The notes beneath the pieces are model-generated. The model worked only from the letters and a program-made list of their open reading frames with translations, was not told the DNA's origin and searched no databases. From Methanosarcina acetivorans C2A (GTDB lineage Archaea; Halobacteriota; Methanosarcinia; Methanosarcinales; Methanosarcinaceae): a DNA stretch of 64,000 nucleotides. The DNA lies in the NCBI RefSeq assembly GCF_000007345.1, contig NC_003552.1, forward strand, positions 4,154,001-4,218,000, in the 5' to 3' direction. This document shows, in pieces, positions 41,737-51,276 of this stretch. Positions within the stretch are counted from its first letter, which is position 1, and each line of letters begins with the position of its first letter. The translations under genes were made by a program, and so were the position numbers.

Positions 41737-42530
41737 ATTAGAAGGAGAAGTTTACTCCCTTAGTTTCCAGTATTTTTCCCCTTCTTTCTGATGAACTCTT
41801 TTCGTGAAGAATGTTTACTTGTATATATTTTCTTTGCGGTTACTTATAAATATTCTAATTTTTAAAAATCAACTTTCAGAAAAATTTTATTATTATCTGT
41901 ATATTTTATATATCGGACTATATTTTATATCTAATAATTTTTAGAAAGATTTATATCAAATATTTGCATAAGTTAATCCATATTATCGTCACAGGATAAT
42001 ATAAAAAGACATATACTATATTAAATGTGAAATGTTAATAATTCATGGGGATTTGCCTGACGGCGAATTTGTGGTTTGCAATTAATAGGTATATGTCTGA
42101 TGGCCGGGCTGATGGGTCAGCTCAGACAATAAAAACGGGGTTGGTTCATAATTCCCCTGCTGCGCAAGAATTGGGGTTACAACTTGCCGCTCCGGAGGGA
42201 GAAGCTAACACATTCCTGCCTGAAAACGGTCTTGGAAAGGTGTTGGCTTTTTGATCTACTAATCGAGGTAAAATTGGTTAGATTAATTAATTTCAGGAGG
42301 TGAGGCGCAAAACAGTTTTATAATTAAAAACTGTAAATTTCCTACAGTCTTGTTTTATTTAATTTTTAACCAATAATTAATTTCAGAATTTCTAGACTGT
42401 TTATAGGATTGTGTTCAAGCTAACTGGAATCTGCTACAACTCGCGACTTCAATAATTTATTTAATCTTATATAATACTCAATGTTGGACTCAAAATAAAA
42501 TTGAACATTTGCGGAATCTAGGTGCAGAAT
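41737..42530. other. Long spacer before the surface-protein cluster
   Basis: Very AT-rich at 41860-42030. A 14-bp inverted pair (catttcacatttaa 41705-41718, ttaaatgtgaaatg 42021-42034) brackets part of it. A 69-codon frame at 42045-42254 has no SD and no recognisable product; it may be a relic. aggaggtgag at 42296-42305 looks like an SD but leads only to an eight-codon frame. A hairpin acagtttt...aaaactgt lies at 42311-42333. TATA cttatataatac (42467-42478) fits the gene at 42531. Confidence 0.4.
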
Positions 42531-44987
42531 ATGAAACAGAAAATAATGTTATTTGGTGCACTGCTAATTATGTTCCTTTTAGCAGGAACAGCAAGTGCAA
42601 TAGAAGATACGGAGAATACAGATACTGTATCGCTTCCAGTTGATCTGTGCGTTGATAGTATCGTCTACAGCGACGAAGGTCCTTTCGCGGCGGGAGACGT
42701 TGTAGAAACCACTGTAACCTTCAACAAACCCGTCAATTATGCGGCTTTTACTGTTTGTGACTACGATCCGAATCCCACCGTCATCGTAATGACTCCAAAG
42801 GATGACAGTGGTACTGTCTGGTGTGGTACATATCCCGTTCAAGGCGATGTAAACGATGCGGTTGACGTGATAGTATATGGAGCCATCTTAGATGGGGACT
42901 TTGCTTATGGAGCTCTCTTCGACGACTTTGGAGTCATCCTCGACGACTATGGAACCATCTTAGAAGGTTATCCTGTGATTGAAGAGGTTGAGGAAACTGA
43001 TTATTACGCCTTTGTGATTGACAACGAAGCTCCGAAGTTTATTATAATTGAACCGGATATTGGTGTCAATACAAATTGTGTATGCTTCAATATCCAAGCC
43101 GTCGATAAACTGAGCGATACAATTGCCTATGCCATCTTTATCAATGGTATTGAGAAGAAAGCAGGGGTTGTGGATTGTGACGGATATGTAATATATGAGC
43201 CTGAGCTGGATGATGGCTATTATCAATGGAGAATCGAACTCGAAGACGAAGCAGGAAATATTTGTATCTCTGAAGACTTCGACCTGTACGTGGACACCGA
43301 CTGTCCGAGTGCAGTACTTGTTTCCCCGGAAGCCAGCTGCGTCATCAGCGCATATCTCGATCCCTTCATGACATTCAGTTTCACCGCTGAGGATGATTTC
43401 TCTGGTGACTGTGATCTGGAGCTGTATTACCAGGTGTACATCAACGGAGAACCTGTTGAGGAAATGTCCGGGATTATGCCCTCTGAAGAGCTCGTAACCA
43501 TAGACGTTCCATCTGGCTTCTTCGAGGACGGGGCTTATGCTTGGTACGTTGAAATTGAGGATCTGGCAGGAAATTGCTTTACGAGTGAAGTCCGGGAATT
43601 CTATGTCAACTGCGAAGAGCTTATAGTCAGTCTCAATTTCCCGGCGGATGGTGAGTTCGTTTCTGCATGTCCGGAATTTAACTTCAGTGTTTCAGGAGGA
43701 GCAGGGCTGCCTTTCGATTACGAACTGCTTATTGACGGCGAGGTAGTAAAGGAGGGCACGTGCGTTATCGGTGAAGACGAGGTTAACTGCTATTCCGTGA
43801 ATGTAGAAGTGGATGAAGGCATAGATATTCTCTGGACCGTGTGTATCACTGATTGTGCAGGCAGGGAATATCTACCTGATCCATGTTCTTTCTCTGTTGA
43901 CTGTACTGCTCCGGCTGCCGTGGCAAACCTGTGTGTTGTTGACGCTCTGAGCGCGACTACATGGTACTATACATATGATGAGCCCGGACTGTACGTTAGC
44001 TGGGATAATAACTTAGAAGACGATCTTTGCTTTGACCCGGCCGATCCTTTCTCTACTCCATATGTGGTTTTAATCAGCGAATGCGAGCCCTCATGCATTG
44101 AGGATATGCAACTGGCAGATGCTGTAAGCCCACTCGAATCCCAATATGACGACAACGGTGTATGTACTCTTGATACAGACGTCTATATCGGAGGGTGTGC
44201 TGGAGAACCCCTCGTTTATGGTCAGGACTACTGGGTAGCTGTTATTGCCCTGGATTGGGCTGGTAACTACGACGAATGCTTTGCCGTTTGCGGGCCTGTC
44301 CGGACATACGAAGACATGAACCTCATGCTTGATGCAGGCTGGAACCTGAAATCCGTGCCCAAGACTCCGGCTGCATTCAATGACGACCCGGACTCGGTCT
44401 TTGGAGAATGCACCACAGTCATTTACTGGGACGGTTGTGAATGGGTATTCCCGGACTGCATCGAACCATGTAGGGGTTACTGGGTCTACACTCCGGAAGC
44501 CTGCGTGAGCAATATAAAGTTCAAGCCAATGTCACTTGACAGTTCAACTCCTGATGTGCCTCCGTCTCTTGACCTGGATTGTGGATGGCAGATGATAGGA
44601 CACACCTCTACAGTACCTGTACACTGGTCCGAGACTCTGGGTTCATTGCAGGGTCTTCTGGGCTTAGAGTATAAGTTCTCCAACCTCATCACGTATTCTT
44701 GCAATGAAGGTTGGGGCGGTACAATCTCTCTTGGATTCTTAGACCTGGTCGGTGAAGACGGTGTTTCAGAAATGGATCCATGCCCGGTTGAAGTACTTGA
44801 ATTTGATGGTCTTATGGCTCCAGGACAGGGATACTGGGTCTTCATGAAGGAACCCGGTACCTACGCTTCCGTCGAAAACGTGGAGTTCTACGTCGGTGGA
44901 ATAATTCCCGACGATGGAACCGACGATGGAGCCGACGATGGTACCATCAATGATACTATCAATGATATCTTCAATGGCACCGTGTAA
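42531..44987 (+). CDS. Secreted Cys-rich Ig-like surface protein
   Basis: 818 residues from ATG 42531, chosen because aggtg lies 7-11 bases upstream; a GTG three codons earlier lacks an SD. A signal peptide (KIMLFGALLIMFLLAGTASA) ends near residue 23. Next come about four Ig-like/fibronectin-like domains of 95-100 residues (repeated ...DxDCPSAVLVSPEASC..., DGAYAWYVEIEDLAGNCFTS, ILWTVCITDCAGREY), unusually rich in paired Cys. Two copies of a GW-domain-like motif follow (LDAGWNLKSVPKTP...PCRGYWVYTPE; LDCGWQMIGHTS...GQGYWVFMKEP). The tail is Asp-rich (DDGTDDGADDGT) and lacks a membrane helix or PGF motif, so it may be released or bound non-covalently. It is very acidic overall and probably a cell-surface adhesin or structural protein. 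A strong terminator follows the stop. Confidence 0.8.
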   Translation: MKQKIMLFGALLIMFLLAGTASAIEDTENTDTVSLPVDLCVDSIVYSDEGPFAAGDVVETTVTFNKPVNYAAFTVCDYDPNPTVIVMTPKDDSGTVWCGTYPVQGDVNDAVDVIVYGAILDGDFAYGALFDDFGVILDDYGTILEGYPVIEEVEETDYYAFVIDNEAPKFIIIEPDIGVNTNCVCFNIQAVDKLSDTIAYAIFINGIEKKAGVVDCDGYVIYEPELDDGYYQWRIELEDEAGNICISEDFDLYVDTDCPSAVLVSPEASCVISAYLDPFMTFSFTAEDDFSGDCDLELYYQVYINGEPVEEMSGIMPSEELVTIDVPSGFFEDGAYAWYVEIEDLAGNCFTSEVREFYVNCEELIVSLNFPADGEFVSACPEFNFSVSGGAGLPFDYELLIDGEVVKEGTCVIGEDEVNCYSVNVEVDEGIDILWTVCITDCAGREYLPDPCSFSVDCTAPAAVANLCVVDALSATTWYYTYDEPGLYVSWDNNLEDDLCFDPADPFSTPYVVLISECEPSCIEDMQLADAVSPLESQYDDNGVCTLDTDVYIGGCAGEPLVYGQDYWVAVIALDWAGNYDECFAVCGPVRTYEDMNLMLDAGWNLKSVPKTPAAFNDDPDSVFGECTTVIYWDGCEWVFPDCIEPCRGYWVYTPEACVSNIKFKPMSLDSSTPDVPPSLDLDCGWQMIGHTSTVPVHWSETLGSLQGLLGLEYKFSNLITYSCNEGWGGTISLGFLDLVGEDGVSEMDPCPVEVLEFDGLMAPGQGYWVFMKEPGTYASVENVEFYVGGIIPDDGTDDGADDGTINDTINDIFNGTV

Positions 44988-45015
44988 GAGGTGAAATTTC
45001 GAAAGCAGGCAACTT

Positions 45016-45046
45016 TTCAGCCATTAAGGCTGAAGTTTTTTTCTTT
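45016..45046 (+). terminator. Intrinsic-type terminator between surface-protein genes
   Basis: A perfect 7-bp stem ttcagcc (45016-45022) / ggctgaa (45028-45034), 5-nt loop, then gtttttttcttttttc. It lies 28 bp after one stop and about 45 bp before the next start, with no room for an obvious new promoter. Hence it may be a partial terminator within one transcription unit. Confidence 0.75.
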
Positions 45047-45078
45047 TTTCTTGTTTGCCTAGCAATCGGAGGTAAATC

Positions 45079-45771
45079 ATGAACAGGATATTAAAAAATA
45101 GTTTATTGGGAACAGCTGTACTTATGTTGTTTTTTTCAACAGCTGCTCATACATGTATGGCAGAGGAAGAAGCAGTTCCTTTGCTTCCAATGACAGTGGA
45201 GGGGGTCGCCCTGATTGATGGGGACCCGGCTCCCACAGGCACTGTCGTTGCAGCTTACCTTGATGGAGAGCTGGTAAAAGAGGCTATCATAAATAGTTCC
45301 TCAGGAAGTTTCTATCTCTTGATTCCCGGAGAAGCCGAGGACGAGGGAAAGCCAGTTACCTTTAAGGTGGATGAAGAGGATTCGGGTGCGAGTTATGACT
45401 GGGAATCCGGAAAACAGGTTTTATCCATCGAACTGTCGGTCGGTGACGTAGCCGACTCAGGGAGTTCTAAAAAGAGCTCAACATCAAGTTCAAGTTCCGG
45501 ATCGGTAGAAACCAGCGAATCGGAAACTTCTGGCGCTGAAGTCATTAATAGTTCAGTCACTCAACCGGAGGTAGAGATTCAGGAAACTGTCCCGGAAAAT
45601 GCAGTTGCCGATTCAGGTGAAGGTGCCGAAACCGAACAGAGTGCGGAATCTTCCGAAGAATCCTCTGAAACAAGCAGTACTCCAGGTTTTCAGATTATTT
45701 ATGCGGTTGTAGGCCTCATTCTGCTCACTTTCGGCTCAAAGCTTGGGAGGGAAGCAAGAAGGAAACCCTGA
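45079..45771 (+). CDS. Surface protein with C-terminal PGF-CTERM-like anchor
   Basis: 230 residues. SD CGGAGGT before the ATG. A signal peptide runs to about residue 28 (cleavage after CMA). Residues 33-125 form a beta-rich domain (EGVALIDGDPAPTGTVVAAY, then GSFYLLIPGEAEDEGKPVTF) that is homologous to the N-terminal domain of the next gene product. Residues 128-200 are a Ser/Glu/Thr-rich linker likely to be glycosylated. The end has STPGF, one membrane helix and a basic tail (GREARRKP), the plan of PGF-CTERM archaeosortase substrates, so the protein is probably processed and lipid-anchored outside the cell. Confidence 0.8.
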   Translation: MNRILKNSLLGTAVLMLFFSTAAHTCMAEEEAVPLLPMTVEGVALIDGDPAPTGTVVAAYLDGELVKEAIINSSSGSFYLLIPGEAEDEGKPVTFKVDEEDSGASYDWESGKQVLSIELSVGDVADSGSSKKSSTSSSSSGSVETSESETSGAEVINSSVTQPEVEIQETVPENAVADSGEGAETEQSAESSEESSETSSTPGFQIIYAVVGLILLTFGSKLGREARRKP

Positions 45772-45825
45772 CGGATTTTTCTAAAAGGATCTGCACGGGT
45801 AACGTGAAAATCTCAAGGTGATAAG

Positions 45826-46647
45826 GTGACCATCAAGGACAAATACTTAAGAGTTTTATCATGCCTGGTTATTCTGGTACTGGGCATATCCCTTGTTCCG
45901 GTTGCATCTGCCAGCAGTACTATTCCTTCGATTCCCAACTCATTTGAAGGAAAGCTGATTACGAATGGTGCAGATGTACCCGCAGGAACTATAATTTCGG
46001 CTTATATAGATTCCGAGCTTGCTGGCAGTAATACTATAGATGAAGCAGGAAAATACCGGCTATTAGTCTCGGGTACCGAGGAGGATAACGGAAAGGAAAT
46101 TGTCTTCAAACTGGGCTTCGTTGAATCCGAGCCTGTTTCCGTGACCTACCAGCAAGGTGCCTATCCAGTGGAACTCGATCTTACTTTTGAAGGGGAGTTT
46201 GTATCTCCAATCATAGAAAGCTGCTCTGCATCTCCTGTGTACATCCTGAATGACGGAAAGGATTACTCAACTATCAGGGCAAAAATCTCGGATGAAACTT
46301 CCGGAGTTATGTCGGTAACTATCGATCTCACCCCCATAGGAGGAGAAGTTGTTTCCCTGACGCCCGAAAGCGGAGGCATTTACACCTGCGATGTGAGCAG
46401 CACTCTGGCAGGAGAGTTTAAACTCGCTCTTACAGCTACGGACTACTTTGGGAATAAAGTTACAGATGGAGATAGTATCTCGATTACCGTAGTTTCAGAA
46501 AATGAGATTACGACAATGTTTGGGGGCGCTGATAAGATTTTCTCTGCTGAAGAAATCAAAAACATTGTAAATAATAATGAAATCTCCAGCAGGCTCAAAT
46601 ACGCAATTCTGGCAATTTACTTTGCTGACGGGTGGGATAGAATATGA
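45826..46647 (+). CDS. Secreted beta-domain protein with EF-hand/dockerin-like C-terminus
   Basis: 273 residues. The start is GTG 45826 with AAGGTGA as SD. A signal peptide ends near VASA (residue 29). Residues 38-125 (EGKLITNGADVPAGTIISAY, AGKYRLLVSGTEEDNGKEIV) match the domain of the upstream gene product. Residues 128-225 form an Ig-like domain (ILNDGKDYSTIRAKISDETS, LALTATDYFGNKVTDGDS). The last 45 residues (GGADKIFSAEEIKNIVNNNE, LKYAILAIYFADGW) look like a degenerate dockerin or helical interaction domain. There is no anchor. The TGA overlaps the ATG of the next gene (46644-46647), so translation is coupled and the products may form a complex. Confidence 0.72.
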   Translation: MTIKDKYLRVLSCLVILVLGISLVPVASASSTIPSIPNSFEGKLITNGADVPAGTIISAYIDSELAGSNTIDEAGKYRLLVSGTEEDNGKEIVFKLGFVESEPVSVTYQQGAYPVELDLTFEGEFVSPIIESCSASPVYILNDGKDYSTIRAKISDETSGVMSVTIDLTPIGGEVVSLTPESGGIYTCDVSSTLAGEFKLALTATDYFGNKVTDGDSISITVVSENEITTMFGGADKIFSAEEIKNIVNNNEISSRLKYAILAIYFADGWDRI

Positions 46648-47759
46648 AACGGCCTGAATTTAAAATTGCTTTTGTGCTGCTCCTGAGCCTGGTCTTATGC
46701 ACGGTACCGGCTTCTGCAGGCAGTGCAGAAAGGACTCTTCCTTCTTCCGTTAGCACCAGTGAGGTGTTTGAGGTAACAATTAGTGTAGCTGATTATGGAG
46801 TAGCCGGGCAGGTTCTGGAAAAGATTCCTGCAGAATTCACATACGTCAGCTCGACTCTCCCGGAAGAAGCTGTAACTGTAAACGGGAACAAGATTTCTTT
46901 CCTGCTGATAAACGATGAGAGTTTCAGCTATACTCTTAAAGCTCCTGAATCAACCGGAACATACCAGTTTGTGGGGCTTTTAAGAGATATCAACAAAACC
47001 GAATTCTCTGTTCTCCCGGCAAGTTCTTCTATAAAGGTAGTATCAACCTCCGGGAGTTCAGGCGGCAGTTCACATAAGAGCTCAGGTAGCAGTTCAAGCG
47101 GCGGAGCTGGAGGTTCCCCCGAACTCCAGAGCAATGTAGAGGCTAAAGAGCTTTCTCAGGCGTTTGTCACCAACGGAACACATGTAAGGTTTGATTTTCC
47201 AAATGGTGTAACCTGCATAAGGTATGTGGAGTTTGATGCCAAGAAAACTCTCGGAAAGATCACTACTATTGCCGAAATGCTGAAAGGTCAATCCAAGCTG
47301 GTTCCGAATCTGCCCGAAGGCACGGTCTATAAGAACGTAAACATCTGGGTGGGTTCAGGAGGAATTGCAAACTCTGATAATATCGAGAATGCAGTTGTCG
47401 GTTTCAGAGTCGAAAAGGCCTGGCTTGAGGAAAACGAGATTGATGCAGATTCGTTAAACCTCTGGTACTATGACAATTCATGGAATAAACTTGATACAGA
47501 GAAATTAGACGAGGAAAGCGACACTTATGTCTACTTCGAAGCCAAGACTCCAGGTTTCGGATCCTTTGTAATTGTTGCTGGAGACGATTCTGGTTCGATA
47601 GAAGTCGAGCCTGTTCCGACTGATGATGCAGGAGATGATGTGGCATCCGAACCCGCAAGGGCTTCAAGCGGAGGCTGGCGTTCCACGCCTGGTTTTGAAT
47701 CCGCAGCTTTTCTGGGAGCTGTTGGAGCCGCATACTGCGTCATGAGAAGAAAGTTCTAA
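46644..47759 (+). CDS. PGF-pre-PGF domain surface protein with PGF-CTERM anchor
   Basis: 371 residues. The signal peptide ends near residue 25 (VPASAG). Residues 27-130 form a beta domain (RTLPSSVSTSEVFEVTISV). After a Ser/Gly-rich linker (134-157) comes the PGF-pre-PGF domain (about 160-312), recognised from HVRFDFPNGVTCIRYVEFDA, NIWVGSGGIANSDNIENAV and TPGFGSFVIVAGD. The C-terminus has a second linker and STPGF (345-349), helix ESAAFLGAVGAAYCVM and RRKF, a clear PGF-CTERM sorting signal. It is translationally coupled to the preceding gene. It is probably the anchored member of a three-protein surface assembly. Confidence 0.87.
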   Translation: MKRPEFKIAFVLLLSLVLCTVPASAGSAERTLPSSVSTSEVFEVTISVADYGVAGQVLEKIPAEFTYVSSTLPEEAVTVNGNKISFLLINDESFSYTLKAPESTGTYQFVGLLRDINKTEFSVLPASSSIKVVSTSGSSGGSSHKSSGSSSSGGAGGSPELQSNVEAKELSQAFVTNGTHVRFDFPNGVTCIRYVEFDAKKTLGKITTIAEMLKGQSKLVPNLPEGTVYKNVNIWVGSGGIANSDNIENAVVGFRVEKAWLEENEIDADSLNLWYYDNSWNKLDTEKLDEESDTYVYFEAKTPGFGSFVIVAGDDSGSIEVEPVPTDDAGDDVASEPARASSGGWRSTPGFESAAFLGAVGAAYCVMRRKF

Positions 47760-47822: not shown

Positions 47823-48115
47823 CTGGTTGCACCACCCGAGTTTCGCTTCCCGAATTGCGCCTCGGGATCATAAGAAAATCATAGATTTTCTGGGAGTTGC
47901 GATGTAATCGCAACAGAACGAGGTCTGTTTCGGCAGAGTTGCGACTCTGCAGTTCGCTGTCTGTTTCGGCAGAGTTGCGACTCTGCAGTTCGCTGTCTGT
48001 TTCGGCAGAGTTGCGACTCTGCAGTTCGCTGTCTGTTTCGCTCCGCTCAAGCAGACTAATTTGCAGATAAAAATCGGGAGCTCCGCTCAAGCAGACTATT
48101 ATGGGAAAAGTGAGC
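47823..48115. repeat. Palindromic repeat cluster with a 36-bp tandem array
   Basis: A dispersed repeat segment (47840-47915) ends in the hairpin gttgcga-tgtaa-tcgcaac (47896-47914) and has an inverted, diverged relative at 57595-57700. It is followed by three perfect 36-bp units (47925-47960, 47961-47996, 47997-48032), each containing the palindrome gcagagt-tgcg-actctgc. Two copies of ctccgctcaagcagacta follow (48040-48057, 48081-48098). The units are contiguous without spacers, so this is not CRISPR. It resembles REP/BIME-type intergenic DNA. Short minus-strand frames through it are repeats, not genes. Confidence 0.8.
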
Positions 48116-48438: not shown

Positions 48439-49377
48439 TCATAACCCGGAATCCTTACTGAAATCTATGTTAAAATCGGAATCTTTTCGGGTTCCTTTAC
48501 TTGACCTGAGATTTCTCCGAGTAGGAGCATCCGATTCATGATTTTCCCTTACTGGAGGAAGGTTGAGGATATGGAGTTGGGGAGCCCTGATACCATTTTT
48601 CAGAAATTCTATCCAGGCTCTTGTGTGCACATCGGATTCGAACTTGAATTCATCCCGCAGATCATTGACGTAAGCTTTCGCTCTTAACCTGGTATAAAAA
48701 GGGAGAGCTTTGTGGAGCAGGGTAACAGGAGTGCTTCCGGAGATGTAGACGTATTTTGAGCTCACGACCGCTTCCCGGAGGATCCTCATTGCAGTTTCCA
48801 CATTTGACTCTGAAGCGATATAGAGGTCTATCACAACCATCATTTCCGAAGCCCCGTAATTCCCGCTGGCAACGGTTTCGTTGAAGATAAGGCTGTTTGG
48901 GGCTGTAACGGTGTTGTCGTCAGGGGTTACCAGTTTCGTTGCCCTTAGTCCGATATCGGTAACCTCCCCATAATAAGCTCCAATGGAGATTTTATCCCCT
49001 ATCTGGTAGGGCTTTTCAAAAGTAATTACAAGTCCGCCTATAATGTCTGCAAAAAGGTCCTTGACTCCAAAACCGATGGCAGCACCAAGAAGCCCTGTAA
49101 GAAGGAGCAGTTCGGGCCCAAAGATGTTGAATATTTCCCTGAGGATGTAATAAAAAGCCAGAACATATATTCCAAACTTTACCGCAGGGATAATCATTTT
49201 TACTTTTATCCTATCCTTGCGGCTCATTTTTTCTGAGAGCTTTGATATAAGGGCGGTAATAACCCTACCGAGCACGTAGGCAGCGGCAAGAATCAGGAAC
49301 ATGGTTACGACGGTTTGCGTATCTATTGACCTGAGGGTTTCCAGAAGCTGCTGACTGCCTGAATCTCCGTTTACCAT
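48439..49377 (-). CDS. MscS-family mechanosensitive channel
   Basis: 312 residues. Three membrane helices lie within residues 20-120 (TVVTMFLILAAAYVLGRVIT, FGIYVLAFYYILREIF, and the pore helix LLLLTGLLGAAIGFGVKDLF). The signature ADIIGGLVITFEKPYQIGD and the beta domain (GEVTDIGLRATKLVTPDDNT, APNSLIFNE) are those of MscS channels, which open under membrane tension to release solutes during hypo-osmotic shock. The C-terminal 40 residues are basic and disordered. The ATG directly follows the TAA of the ATPase gene with no base between, so translation is coupled to that ATPase. Confidence 0.93.
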   Translation of the reverse strand: MVNGDSGSQQLLETLRSIDTQTVVTMFLILAAAYVLGRVITALISKLSEKMSRKDRIKVKMIIPAVKFGIYVLAFYYILREIFNIFGPELLLLTGLLGAAIGFGVKDLFADIIGGLVITFEKPYQIGDKISIGAYYGEVTDIGLRATKLVTPDDNTVTAPNSLIFNETVASGNYGASEMMVVIDLYIASESNVETAMRILREAVVSSKYVYISGSTPVTLLHKALPFYTRLRAKAYVNDLRDEFKFESDVHTRAWIEFLKNGIRAPQLHILNLPPVRENHESDAPTRRNLRSSKGTRKDSDFNIDFSKDSGL

Positions 49378-50424
49378 TTACCACACCAGCCTCAGTTTTT
49401 CCATATAAGCAATTACGCTTTGCAGGGCTTCTGGCCTGATCCGGTAGGAAGCGCCTTCATCTTTAAAAATCAGTTCCCCGGTTAGGAGCCGGAAGAGAAT
49501 TTCATCCGCCCTGAATTCAGATCCTATCAGTTCGGCGATTTCGGTTTTTTTCAGGGCCTGGTATGAAAGGATCAGGCTTAAAACGAAAGCCTCTTCGTAC
49601 TCAAGATCGATATCAAATGAAAACTGCCCTATATCTTCATGCTTTATCCCCGGATAATCAAGCCCGAGTTCCCAGATTCTCCATGCAATTCCTGGGTTAC
49701 CTTTTGACTCCAAGTAGATCTTTTCAAACACCATTTCTTCGGCAGTCTGTGTCTCTTCCTCATGCAGGAAGCGGTGCCTCAGATAAGATAAATTTATTTT
49801 CAGGACAGGGACGAAGATTTTCCTACCCAGGGAGGACAGTTCAAGCGGGTATTTTTCTATATATATGAAAGGCTCTTTTTTTGGCTCTTCATCGTTTTCA
49901 AATCTGATTTCTGCTTTCCCATACCTTTTAAGGATAAAGAGCCTGAGATTTTCCTTTTCGAAGGCAGGGATGAAGATCTGTACCGGAAAATACCTCTCGA
50001 TTCCGAAGGCTTCACTCAGGTATCTCCAGGAATAAAGGTTCCAGGTGGCGATGAATAGCTTTTCCTGAGAGCTTATCATGTAAAGAAACTCATAAAAGAT
50101 GTCAAAACCGCCGGGCTTTCGCATGTACAGATAGTGGCAGTTATCAAAGAGCACTACCCTTTTAGTGTCATCAGGAATGGAAATCTCCTTTCTGTCCCGG
50201 ACAATTTCGGAAAAAGTGATTCCTGTTGCCCTGTTCTGATTTATCCTCTCTATTTCGCCAAGCAGAGTCGTCTTTCCGGCAAGAGTTCCGGCTATTATGG
50301 CTATATTCAGTTTTTTCCCTGTCTCATAATCAGCAATTGAAGCCTGTATTTCTCTGATTTCTTCCCTCAGTCCGAGAATTTCACCGAAGCTGTAATCTCC
50401 AGAGTCGCTATGCTGAGTACCCAC
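49378..50424 (-). CDS. P-loop ATPase coupled to the MscS channel gene
   Basis: 348 residues, soluble, from GTG 50422-50424. Walker A is AGTLAGKT (residues 45-52) and Walker B is RVVLFDNCH (D94). The order afterwards (sensor-like LFIATWNLYSW about 125, then a helical domain ESKGNPGIAWRIWELGLD and a C-terminal winged-helix-like region EIAELIGSEFRADEILFRLL) is that of AAA+/STAND-type ATPases such as Orc/MalT-like NTPases. The GNPG-A-R-W motif is the STAND/AAA+ sensor-2-region type. Its function is unknown. The stop abuts the MscS start, suggesting the two proteins are made in step and may interact, for example ATP-dependent control of channel gating. Confidence 0.75.
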   Translation of the reverse strand: MGTQHSDSGDYSFGEILGLREEIREIQASIADYETGKKLNIAIIAGTLAGKTTLLGEIERINQNRATGITFSEIVRDRKEISIPDDTKRVVLFDNCHYLYMRKPGGFDIFYEFLYMISSQEKLFIATWNLYSWRYLSEAFGIERYFPVQIFIPAFEKENLRLFILKRYGKAEIRFENDEEPKKEPFIYIEKYPLELSSLGRKIFVPVLKINLSYLRHRFLHEEETQTAEEMVFEKIYLESKGNPGIAWRIWELGLDYPGIKHEDIGQFSFDIDLEYEEAFVLSLILSYQALKKTEIAELIGSEFRADEILFRLLTGELIFKDEGASYRIRPEALQSVIAYMEKLRLVW

Positions 50425-50778
50425 TGTATCCCCGATTTTATATTCCCTGTATTGTACTTAATAGATACTGCCAAATATTTTTCCATAATTGAGTTATTTT
50501 TCAGGGGCGGGATTCTTTAAAGGCTCTTTAAAGGCTCTTTAAAGGACTCTTTACGGGATTATTTTCAATGATTATTTGAGGAGTTTTTCAAGGACTCTTT
50601 AAAAGACTCTTTAAGACAGTCACAGATATTTCCAAGGCATTGATTTTGCAGAAAATAAATTCGGCTGGAACTTTTAAATATTTATAGCTATTTATAGAGT
50701 TTGAAATTTATTCTTCGAGATTTATTTCTCACTTAATTTACTTTATTGAAAAACCCAACCCTTCCCGGAGAAATAGCT
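50425..50778. other. Divergent spacer with ggctctttaaa repeats
   Basis: Five imperfect copies of (g)gactctttaaa at 50511-50555 and 50590-50617. AT-rich ttaaatatttatagctatttatag (50671-50694) could act as promoter for the plus-strand gene. No gene. Confidence 0.45.
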
Positions 50779-51276
50779 GTGGATGACTGGATGATTTTAA
50801 CCCTTATCCTTTTCCTTGCCCTGCTTATAGTGTACCTGCTCGTCAAATACATCAAATTGAAAGGCAGGGTAGAATCCCGCGCAAGAGACCTGTATGAAGC
50901 TTGGCAAACGCGGGAGATGGAACGACAGGTTTCCGAAAAAGCCGACACTCTCTTTCGGACCTGGAAACTTGACGAGGAGAAAAAAATCCGTCAGGACGCT
51001 GTAAAGAAAAGCGAAGCCGTAATCCGCGGCAAGGTCACAGAACACCTGATCCCTTATTTCCCTGACTTTGAATACAACCCCAAAGATGCAAGGTTCCTCG
51101 GAACTCCTGTGGACTTCATCGTCTTTGACGGGCTTTCCGAAGGAAAAATGAATAAGGTGGTCTTTGTTGAGGTGAAGTCCGGAAAAACGGGAGTTCTTTC
51201 CCAGAGAGAAAAGCTTGTCAGGGAGTGTATTGACAGAGGAAGAGTCAGCTACGAGATCATCCACAACAGGGAATGA
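50779..51276 (+). CDS. Membrane-tethered nuclease-like protein related to archaeal Holliday-junction-resolvase family
   Basis: 165 residues from GTG 50779, chosen because GGAG (50767-50770) is at SD distance; a TTG 33 bases upstream lacks one. The N-terminal helix MILTLILFLALLIVYLLVKY is a membrane anchor. Residues 30-85 are a charged coiled coil. Residues 85-165 carry a PD-(D/E)XK-like core: FLGTPVDFIVFDGL (Asp) and VVFVEVKSGK (E-x-K). This matches the uncharacterised endonuclease-like family described as related to Holliday junction resolvases. The membrane anchor is unusual for a DNA nuclease. It is divergent from the MscS-ATPase operon. Confidence 0.8.
   Translation: MDDWMILTLILFLALLIVYLLVKYIKLKGRVESRARDLYEAWQTREMERQVSEKADTLFRTWKLDEEKKIRQDAVKKSEAVIRGKVTEHLIPYFPDFEYNPKDARFLGTPVDFIVFDGLSEGKMNKVVFVEVKSGKTGVLSQREKLVRECIDRGRVSYEIIHNRE

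Follow-up and report, generated by a model that had tools for sequence, protein, structure and literature searches.

A pseudo-AAA+ protein as the putative dedicated partner of an MscS-family channel in Methanosarcina acetivorans and related archaea

The gene pair and its products

The window analysed here is a stretch of 64,000 nucleotides (4154001-4218000) of the single 5,751,492-base chromosome of Methanosarcina acetivorans C2A, and all coordinates below are window positions. Its minus strand carries two open reading frames that meet at a common boundary:

49378-50424, minus strand: open reading frame of the pseudo-AAA+/P-loop partner, 348 aa, GTG start and TAA stop, with 111 distinct complete homologues
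48439-49377, minus strand: open reading frame of the MscS-family channel, 312 aa, ATG start
49375-49380, minus strand: zero-gap junction TAA/ATG

The minus-strand junction reads AGG CTG GTG TGG TAA ATG GTA AAC. The initial annotation had described the ATPase stop and the channel start as adjacent, and the sequence bears this out: the partner stop (49378-49380) abuts the channel start (49375-49377) with 0 bases between them.

By its domain content and predicted fold, the downstream protein is an MscS-family channel. It matches Pfam MS_channel_2nd (PF00924, mechanosensitive channel beta-domain) at 3.3e-19, with 69.2 bits against a cut-off of 20.2, and its best Foldseek matches are MscK and MscS (E about 1e-15), with a TM3 pore helix and a cytosolic alpha/beta domain. 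Three transmembrane helices, cytosolic cage domains and a disordered C-terminal tail (about 271-312) are predicted, the AlphaFold2 model being a low-confidence monomer (pTM 0.39). The M. acetivorans genome holds seven MscS-family genes, and the paired channel scores 463 bits against the subfamily profile compared with at most 93 for the other six, which indicates that the partner goes with one distinct MscS subfamily.

The upstream protein has no family match in Pfam, NCBIfam or PADLOC, and no confident sequence match to any solved structure. Its AlphaFold2 model (pLDDT 85, pTM 0.78) consists of an AAA+-like core followed by lid helices and a C-terminal winged helix. Foldseek matched this model to RuvB, Cdc6/Orc1, the plant NLR ZAR1 and TnsC, all of them AAA+ proteins with a lid and a winged helix; against RuvB and Orc1/Cdc6 the probability was 1.00, with TM-scores of 0.4-0.46 and a large rmsd, values that probably reflect domains set at different angles. 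A core fold with a lid domain, as expected of an active AAA+ ATPase, is therefore present in the Foldseek comparison. Based on these matches, the predicted anatomy agrees with the P-loop protein with a helical and winged-helix end that had been proposed from the sequence.

Strictness of the pairing and coupling of translation

Within the order, 58 of 186 genomes, 47 of them among the 118 good ones, encode the partner, and 56, of which 46 are good, encode a channel of the paired MscS subfamily at E up to 1e-30; the two sets of genomes are nearly identical. The exceptions are contig ends in two genomes (G065 and G107) and a 67-residue remnant in a third (G126), while in G159 the contig with the MscS gene starts within the final 70 residues of an ATPase. 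Profile searches recovered the partner family from another order of the class and from 69 of 393 genomes in other families of the phylum, representing 36 of 136 genera; among haloarchaea the module is rare (15 of 292). One relative lies on a plasmid, that of the haloarchaeon Salinirubellus, which carries the same pair with a 4-nt overlap between the genes, whose annotations read 'hypothetical' and 'mechanosensitive'. No relatives were found in the phage search or in viral contigs. The collection-wide scan used exact short peptides of one sequence, with a reach limited to close relatives, and some partial copies derive from fragmented metagenome assemblies. The absence of the module from about 60% of the good genomes of the order, together with its rarity in haloarchaea, marks it as accessory.

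The pairing was assessed over 111 distinct complete partners drawn from across the phylum (Methanosarcina, other methanogens and haloarchaea). In 109 of these a channel of the paired subfamily is the next gene downstream on the same strand, and for the remaining two a contig end is no more than 100 nt away. Only one pair is separated (L171), by a 1.2-kb gap with an insertion encoding a TnpB-like protein. This leaves 108 uninterrupted junctions, for which spacing was taken as the distance from the stop to the nearest in-frame start codon; in all 108 the channel start falls within -7 to +3 nt of the partner stop. Because the same gene order and spacing recur throughout, the zero-gap junction in the window is not a chance arrangement. 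The initial annotation had asked whether the pair is conserved in Methanosarcinales and beyond, naming an ATPase found mostly without an MscS gene as the contrary outcome. Conservation instead extends from the order to the phylum, haloarchaea included, and the P-loop-fold protein is tied to one MscS subfamily throughout.

Several further observations were made on the family's copies. Multiple copies or fragments of the whole pair occur in G152 (L080 and L095), G197 (L126 and L127) and G048 (L016, L025 and L026), and at L095 the shortening affects partner and channel alike. In draft genomes, frameshifts or stops interrupt the partner genes at L017/L024 (G020), L022/L023 (G019), L136 (G163) and L197 (G473), which could reflect either decay or assembly error. 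A second, distantly related MscS gene lies near the module at L172, L173, L180, L184, L193, L194, L196 and L201. Two weak ATPase matches, L189 (7336-8410) and L190 (7852-8956), were rejected as family members, as they are generic P-loop ATPases with no MscS gene beside them. Both have GKTT intact, resemble the family weakly (E about 1e-8) and may offer an outgroup for its origin.

The junction also suggests how the channel might be translated, owing to a further feature in the last partner codons:

49384-49387, minus strand: GGTG, Shine-Dalgarno-like, within CTG GTG TGG TAA and 6 nt before the channel ATG

GGTG is part of the archaeal Shine-Dalgarno sequence. Of 108 partner genes, 78 have it within their final 18 nt plus the stop, compared with 6% of in-frame background windows, and in 56 of the genes it stands at identical spacing. 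Where the penultimate codon encodes valine it is GTG in 61 of 73 cases, as against 24% (535/2186) of the valine codons in gene bodies. This enrichment and codon bias indicate that the channel's ribosome-binding site is usually kept inside the last codons of the partner. The pattern supports coupled translation of partner and channel, but it does not by itself bear out the fixed ratio of the two proteins put forward in the initial annotation. The partner would be translated first, the ribosome would re-initiate at the channel start via this site, and the two proteins would thereby be born together.

No other neighbour of the pair is conserved. When neighbours were clustered over 74 loci, the ATPase appeared in 72 and the MscS gene in 70, while the next most frequent cluster appeared in 12; the two genes thus form a stand-alone module. 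The nearest genes on either side are of housekeeping type or differ between loci, and potassium transporters occur in 3 flanks, too few to argue from. In the window itself, a divergent gene (50746-51276) encodes a protein of PF10107 (7e-66), described as an 'endonuclease related to archaeal Holliday junction resolvase', whose N-terminus carries a hydrophobic segment, and neighbour clustering did not find it conserved beside the pair in other genomes. Between this gene and the partner gene, at positions 50510-50614, the 12-base unit GGACTCTTTAAA recurs about nine times in imperfect form. The repeat was not found in the nine close relatives examined, and it was rejected as an operator on this ground. 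A perfect 36-base tandem repeat (3.3 copies) lies downstream of the channel gene at 47923-48040, and 42522-47759, beside the module, is occupied by a run of four genes of secreted or surface type that contain Ig-like or Ser/Gly-rich stretches.

Taken with the fold of the partner, this distribution bears on an immune-effector reading of the pair, a parallel drawn in the initial annotation; on this reading an NLR-like partner would sense infection and open the channel to kill the cell. Such a reading might draw on ZAR1 among the Foldseek matches, on the patchy presence of the module and on weak, sub-threshold matches of relatives to the nSTAND3 profile. The best of these reached an E-value of 6e-6 among 40 family members, and two matching members scanned singly gave 17-21 bits against a cut-off of 27.2; the window protein itself has no nSTAND3 match. 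However, the partner ends after the winged helix and lacks a C-terminal sensor or repeat domain of the STAND/NLR type. PADLOC gave no credible match of the pair to known defence families. Among the matches listed for the 136 nearest flanking genes (25 of 34 families) are one TnpB (Cas12f-like models), one Csx1, one nicking endonuclease and also cation-pump-like 'E1-E2' models. About 2-3 of the 136 are therefore defence-like among these matches, one of them the transposon TnpB, a count that has no random-gene baseline and does not place the pair in defence islands as expected of an anti-phage system. The partner tree clusters by family, and the strong phylum-wide co-conservation is unlike that of arms-race genes. 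The suggestion of an immune effector thus fares poorly, and we consider it very improbable.

The nucleotide site and the role of the partner

Residue conservation was counted over the 109 paired partner sequences, with 334 positions ranked. The relevant features of the window protein are as follows:

50266-50289, minus strand: P-loop GTLAGKTT, residues 46-53, with Lys51; lysine in only 46 of 109 relatives
50128-50145, minus strand: Walker B-like strand end, residues 94-99 (D94, N95, C96, H97, Y98, L99); catalytic Glu absent
50104-50112, minus strand: GGF loop, residues 105-107; G106 in 109/109, F107 in 108/109
50017-50043, minus strand: sensor-1-region motif WNLYSWRYL, residues 128-136; W133 in 109/109, N129 in 108/109, W128 in 107/109
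49690-49707, minus strand: SKGNPG in the lid region, residues 240-245; G242 in 108/108, N243 in 105/108

The Walker A motif GxxxxGK(T/S) is present in the window protein and in only 46 of the 109 members, and is thus not a feature of the family. At the lysine position, K occurs in 46 members, R in 44, E in 9 and one of Q, S, D, L, V or I in 10, so that the lysine has been lost in 63, including all members from the sampled haloarchaeal families. Those that keep it are mostly Methanosarcinaceae and combine GK(T/S) with the Walker B aspartate D94, a residue found in 79 members overall. No member has GK(T/S), D94 and E95 together (the window protein has DN), and the hhhhDE Walker B with its catalytic Glu, expected of an active AAA+ ATPase, is accordingly lacking in all members that keep the lysine. 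K51 ranks only 101st in conservation, whereas G106 and W133 never vary and F107, N129, W128, G242, N243, L136 and F146 hardly do. The motifs conserved in place of the Walker sites are the GGF loop, WN..SW, SxGN and a C-terminal RxVW.

Parsimony on the partner tree requires at least seven changes of the lysine state. The dN/dS of the partner is 0.12-0.34 in lysine-less pairs as against 0.17-0.27 in pairs with the lysine, close to that of the channel itself, and members that have lost the Walker lysine are under purifying selection of about equal strength. Loss of the lysine while selection, gene order and the other motifs are kept points to a conserved task that is independent of a working ATPase site. 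Judged by its sequence, the partner appears to be an ATPase fold that is decaying as an ATPase, the ATP-using residues having been lost in many lineages.

These results limit the proposal that ATP or another nucleotide at the P-loop switches the partner and so opens or shuts the channel. The partner fold is a nucleotide-binding one, the 46 mostly Methanosarcinaceae members retain GK(T/S) plus D94, and P-loops containing arginine might still bind nucleotide weakly. Against this, selection has not relaxed in the 63 members in which the lysine is replaced, and every member with the lysine lacks the catalytic Glu. Nucleotide gating could therefore apply to at most a subset of lineages, and we regard it as unlikely. 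Of the regulator put forward in the initial annotation, the dedicated partner of one MscS subfamily is supported and the response to nucleotide state is not.

The winged helix raised two further proposals, a response of the channel to DNA damage and an operon autoregulator that binds DNA through this domain. The partner gene does come first in the operon. However, the winged helix is net acidic (median charge -4) and the recognition helix is neutral rather than basic in the 95 non-halophilic members, which makes DNA binding unlikely; this reading of the domain was dropped on the charge test, and the DNA-damage response is likewise not supported. In addition, the most conserved residues lie in the core and not in the recognition helix, and the repeat upstream of the M. 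acetivorans partner gene has no counterpart in relatives. We give autoregulation very little credence.

A different role for the partner would be that of an assembly or insertion factor, which chaperones the folding, oligomerization or membrane insertion of the channel and stays outside the working channel. A partner that is always upstream and translationally coupled would fit such a role, AAA+-like folds are common among remodelling factors, and loss of the Walker lysine would suit a holdase-like activity. Yet canonical MscS assembles unaided, M. acetivorans has six further MscS genes that fall outside the partner-carrying subfamily, and AAA+ remodellers normally need the ATP hydrolysis for which the partner's site is incomplete. 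Such a factor seems improbable to us, although we place it ahead of nucleotide gating in the GKT lineages and behind a regulatory subunit.

Our preferred reading, which we hold with moderate confidence, is that the pseudo-AAA+ protein is an obligate regulatory partner or subunit of a dedicated MscS channel. We infer both the physical complex and the control of gating, and tight operons can also hold proteins of the same pathway that never touch. In this scheme the MscS-type channel and its obligate cytosolic partner of AAA+/Orc-like fold would make one functional unit. The partner would most likely bind the cytosolic cage or the membrane-proximal part of the MscS heptamer and, once bound, would set when the channel opens. 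That the Walker A lysine has repeatedly gone while the gene was kept suggests that the partner would act by a conformational switch of the protein and not by ATP hydrolysis, although nucleotide may still serve Methanosarcina-type partners as a bound ligand or a structural cofactor. A more specific model is possible but more doubtful: that gating subunits of pseudo-AAA+ type (Orc/NLR fold), in a ring or a set, are permanently attached to the heptamer, and that their nucleotide site has been lost repeatedly while the channel-binding surface (GGF, WN..SW, RxVW) has been kept.

Comparison with known systems

We found no description of the pair in the open-licence papers and family libraries searched; in that literature a dedicated pseudo-AAA+ partner of an MscS channel is not described, and the protein is unnamed. 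The closest archaeal operons are the haloarchaeal dacZ-mscS2, in which an MscS-type channel accompanies a c-di-AMP cyclase with an osmotic link (PMC6741144), and ynaI-kamA-ablB of Ca. Methanoperedens, in which one accompanies osmolyte-synthesis genes (PMC11337218). Both are archaeal MscS operons like the module, but neither partner is a P-loop protein. With Orc1/Cdc6, RuvB, TnsC and STAND/NLR proteins the partner shares a predicted core, lid and winged helix and a GNP-type motif. It differs from them in the loss of the Walker A lysine from most members, in having no complete DE site together with that lysine, in its acidic winged helix, in the absence of a DNA context and in its strict pairing with a channel.

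MscS serves in textbooks as the example of a channel for which the membrane alone is sufficient. The paired channel shares the MS_channel domain with the MscS superfamily (E. coli MscS, MscK, YnaI and YbiO), along with cytosolic cage domains and three TM helices, the third of them rich in glycine and alanine. The members known so far are each encoded by a single gene, and some have fused domains (the large periplasmic part of MscK, the cyclic-nucleotide-binding domain of bCNG), whereas the paired channel has a separate AAA+-fold partner, and we know of no other MscS-superfamily member that does. If our reading is correct, some MscS channels would be multi-protein, with a phylum-wide, one-to-one coupled partner, and the range from active-looking to clearly dead P-loops would provide a natural series on an AAA+ fold freed from the need for nucleotide. 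As M. acetivorans is genetically tractable, the role of the partner is directly testable. The nearest functional parallel may be the KtrAB/TrkAH potassium transporters, in which an ion pathway is gated by a separately encoded cytosolic subunit of nucleotide-binding fold. There the subunit is an RCK/KTN Rossmann ring on a non-MscS channel, while the archaeal pair combines an AAA+ fold with an MscS channel; and nucleotide binding, central to KtrAB/TrkAH, appears from the sequences to be dispensable in the archaeal partner.
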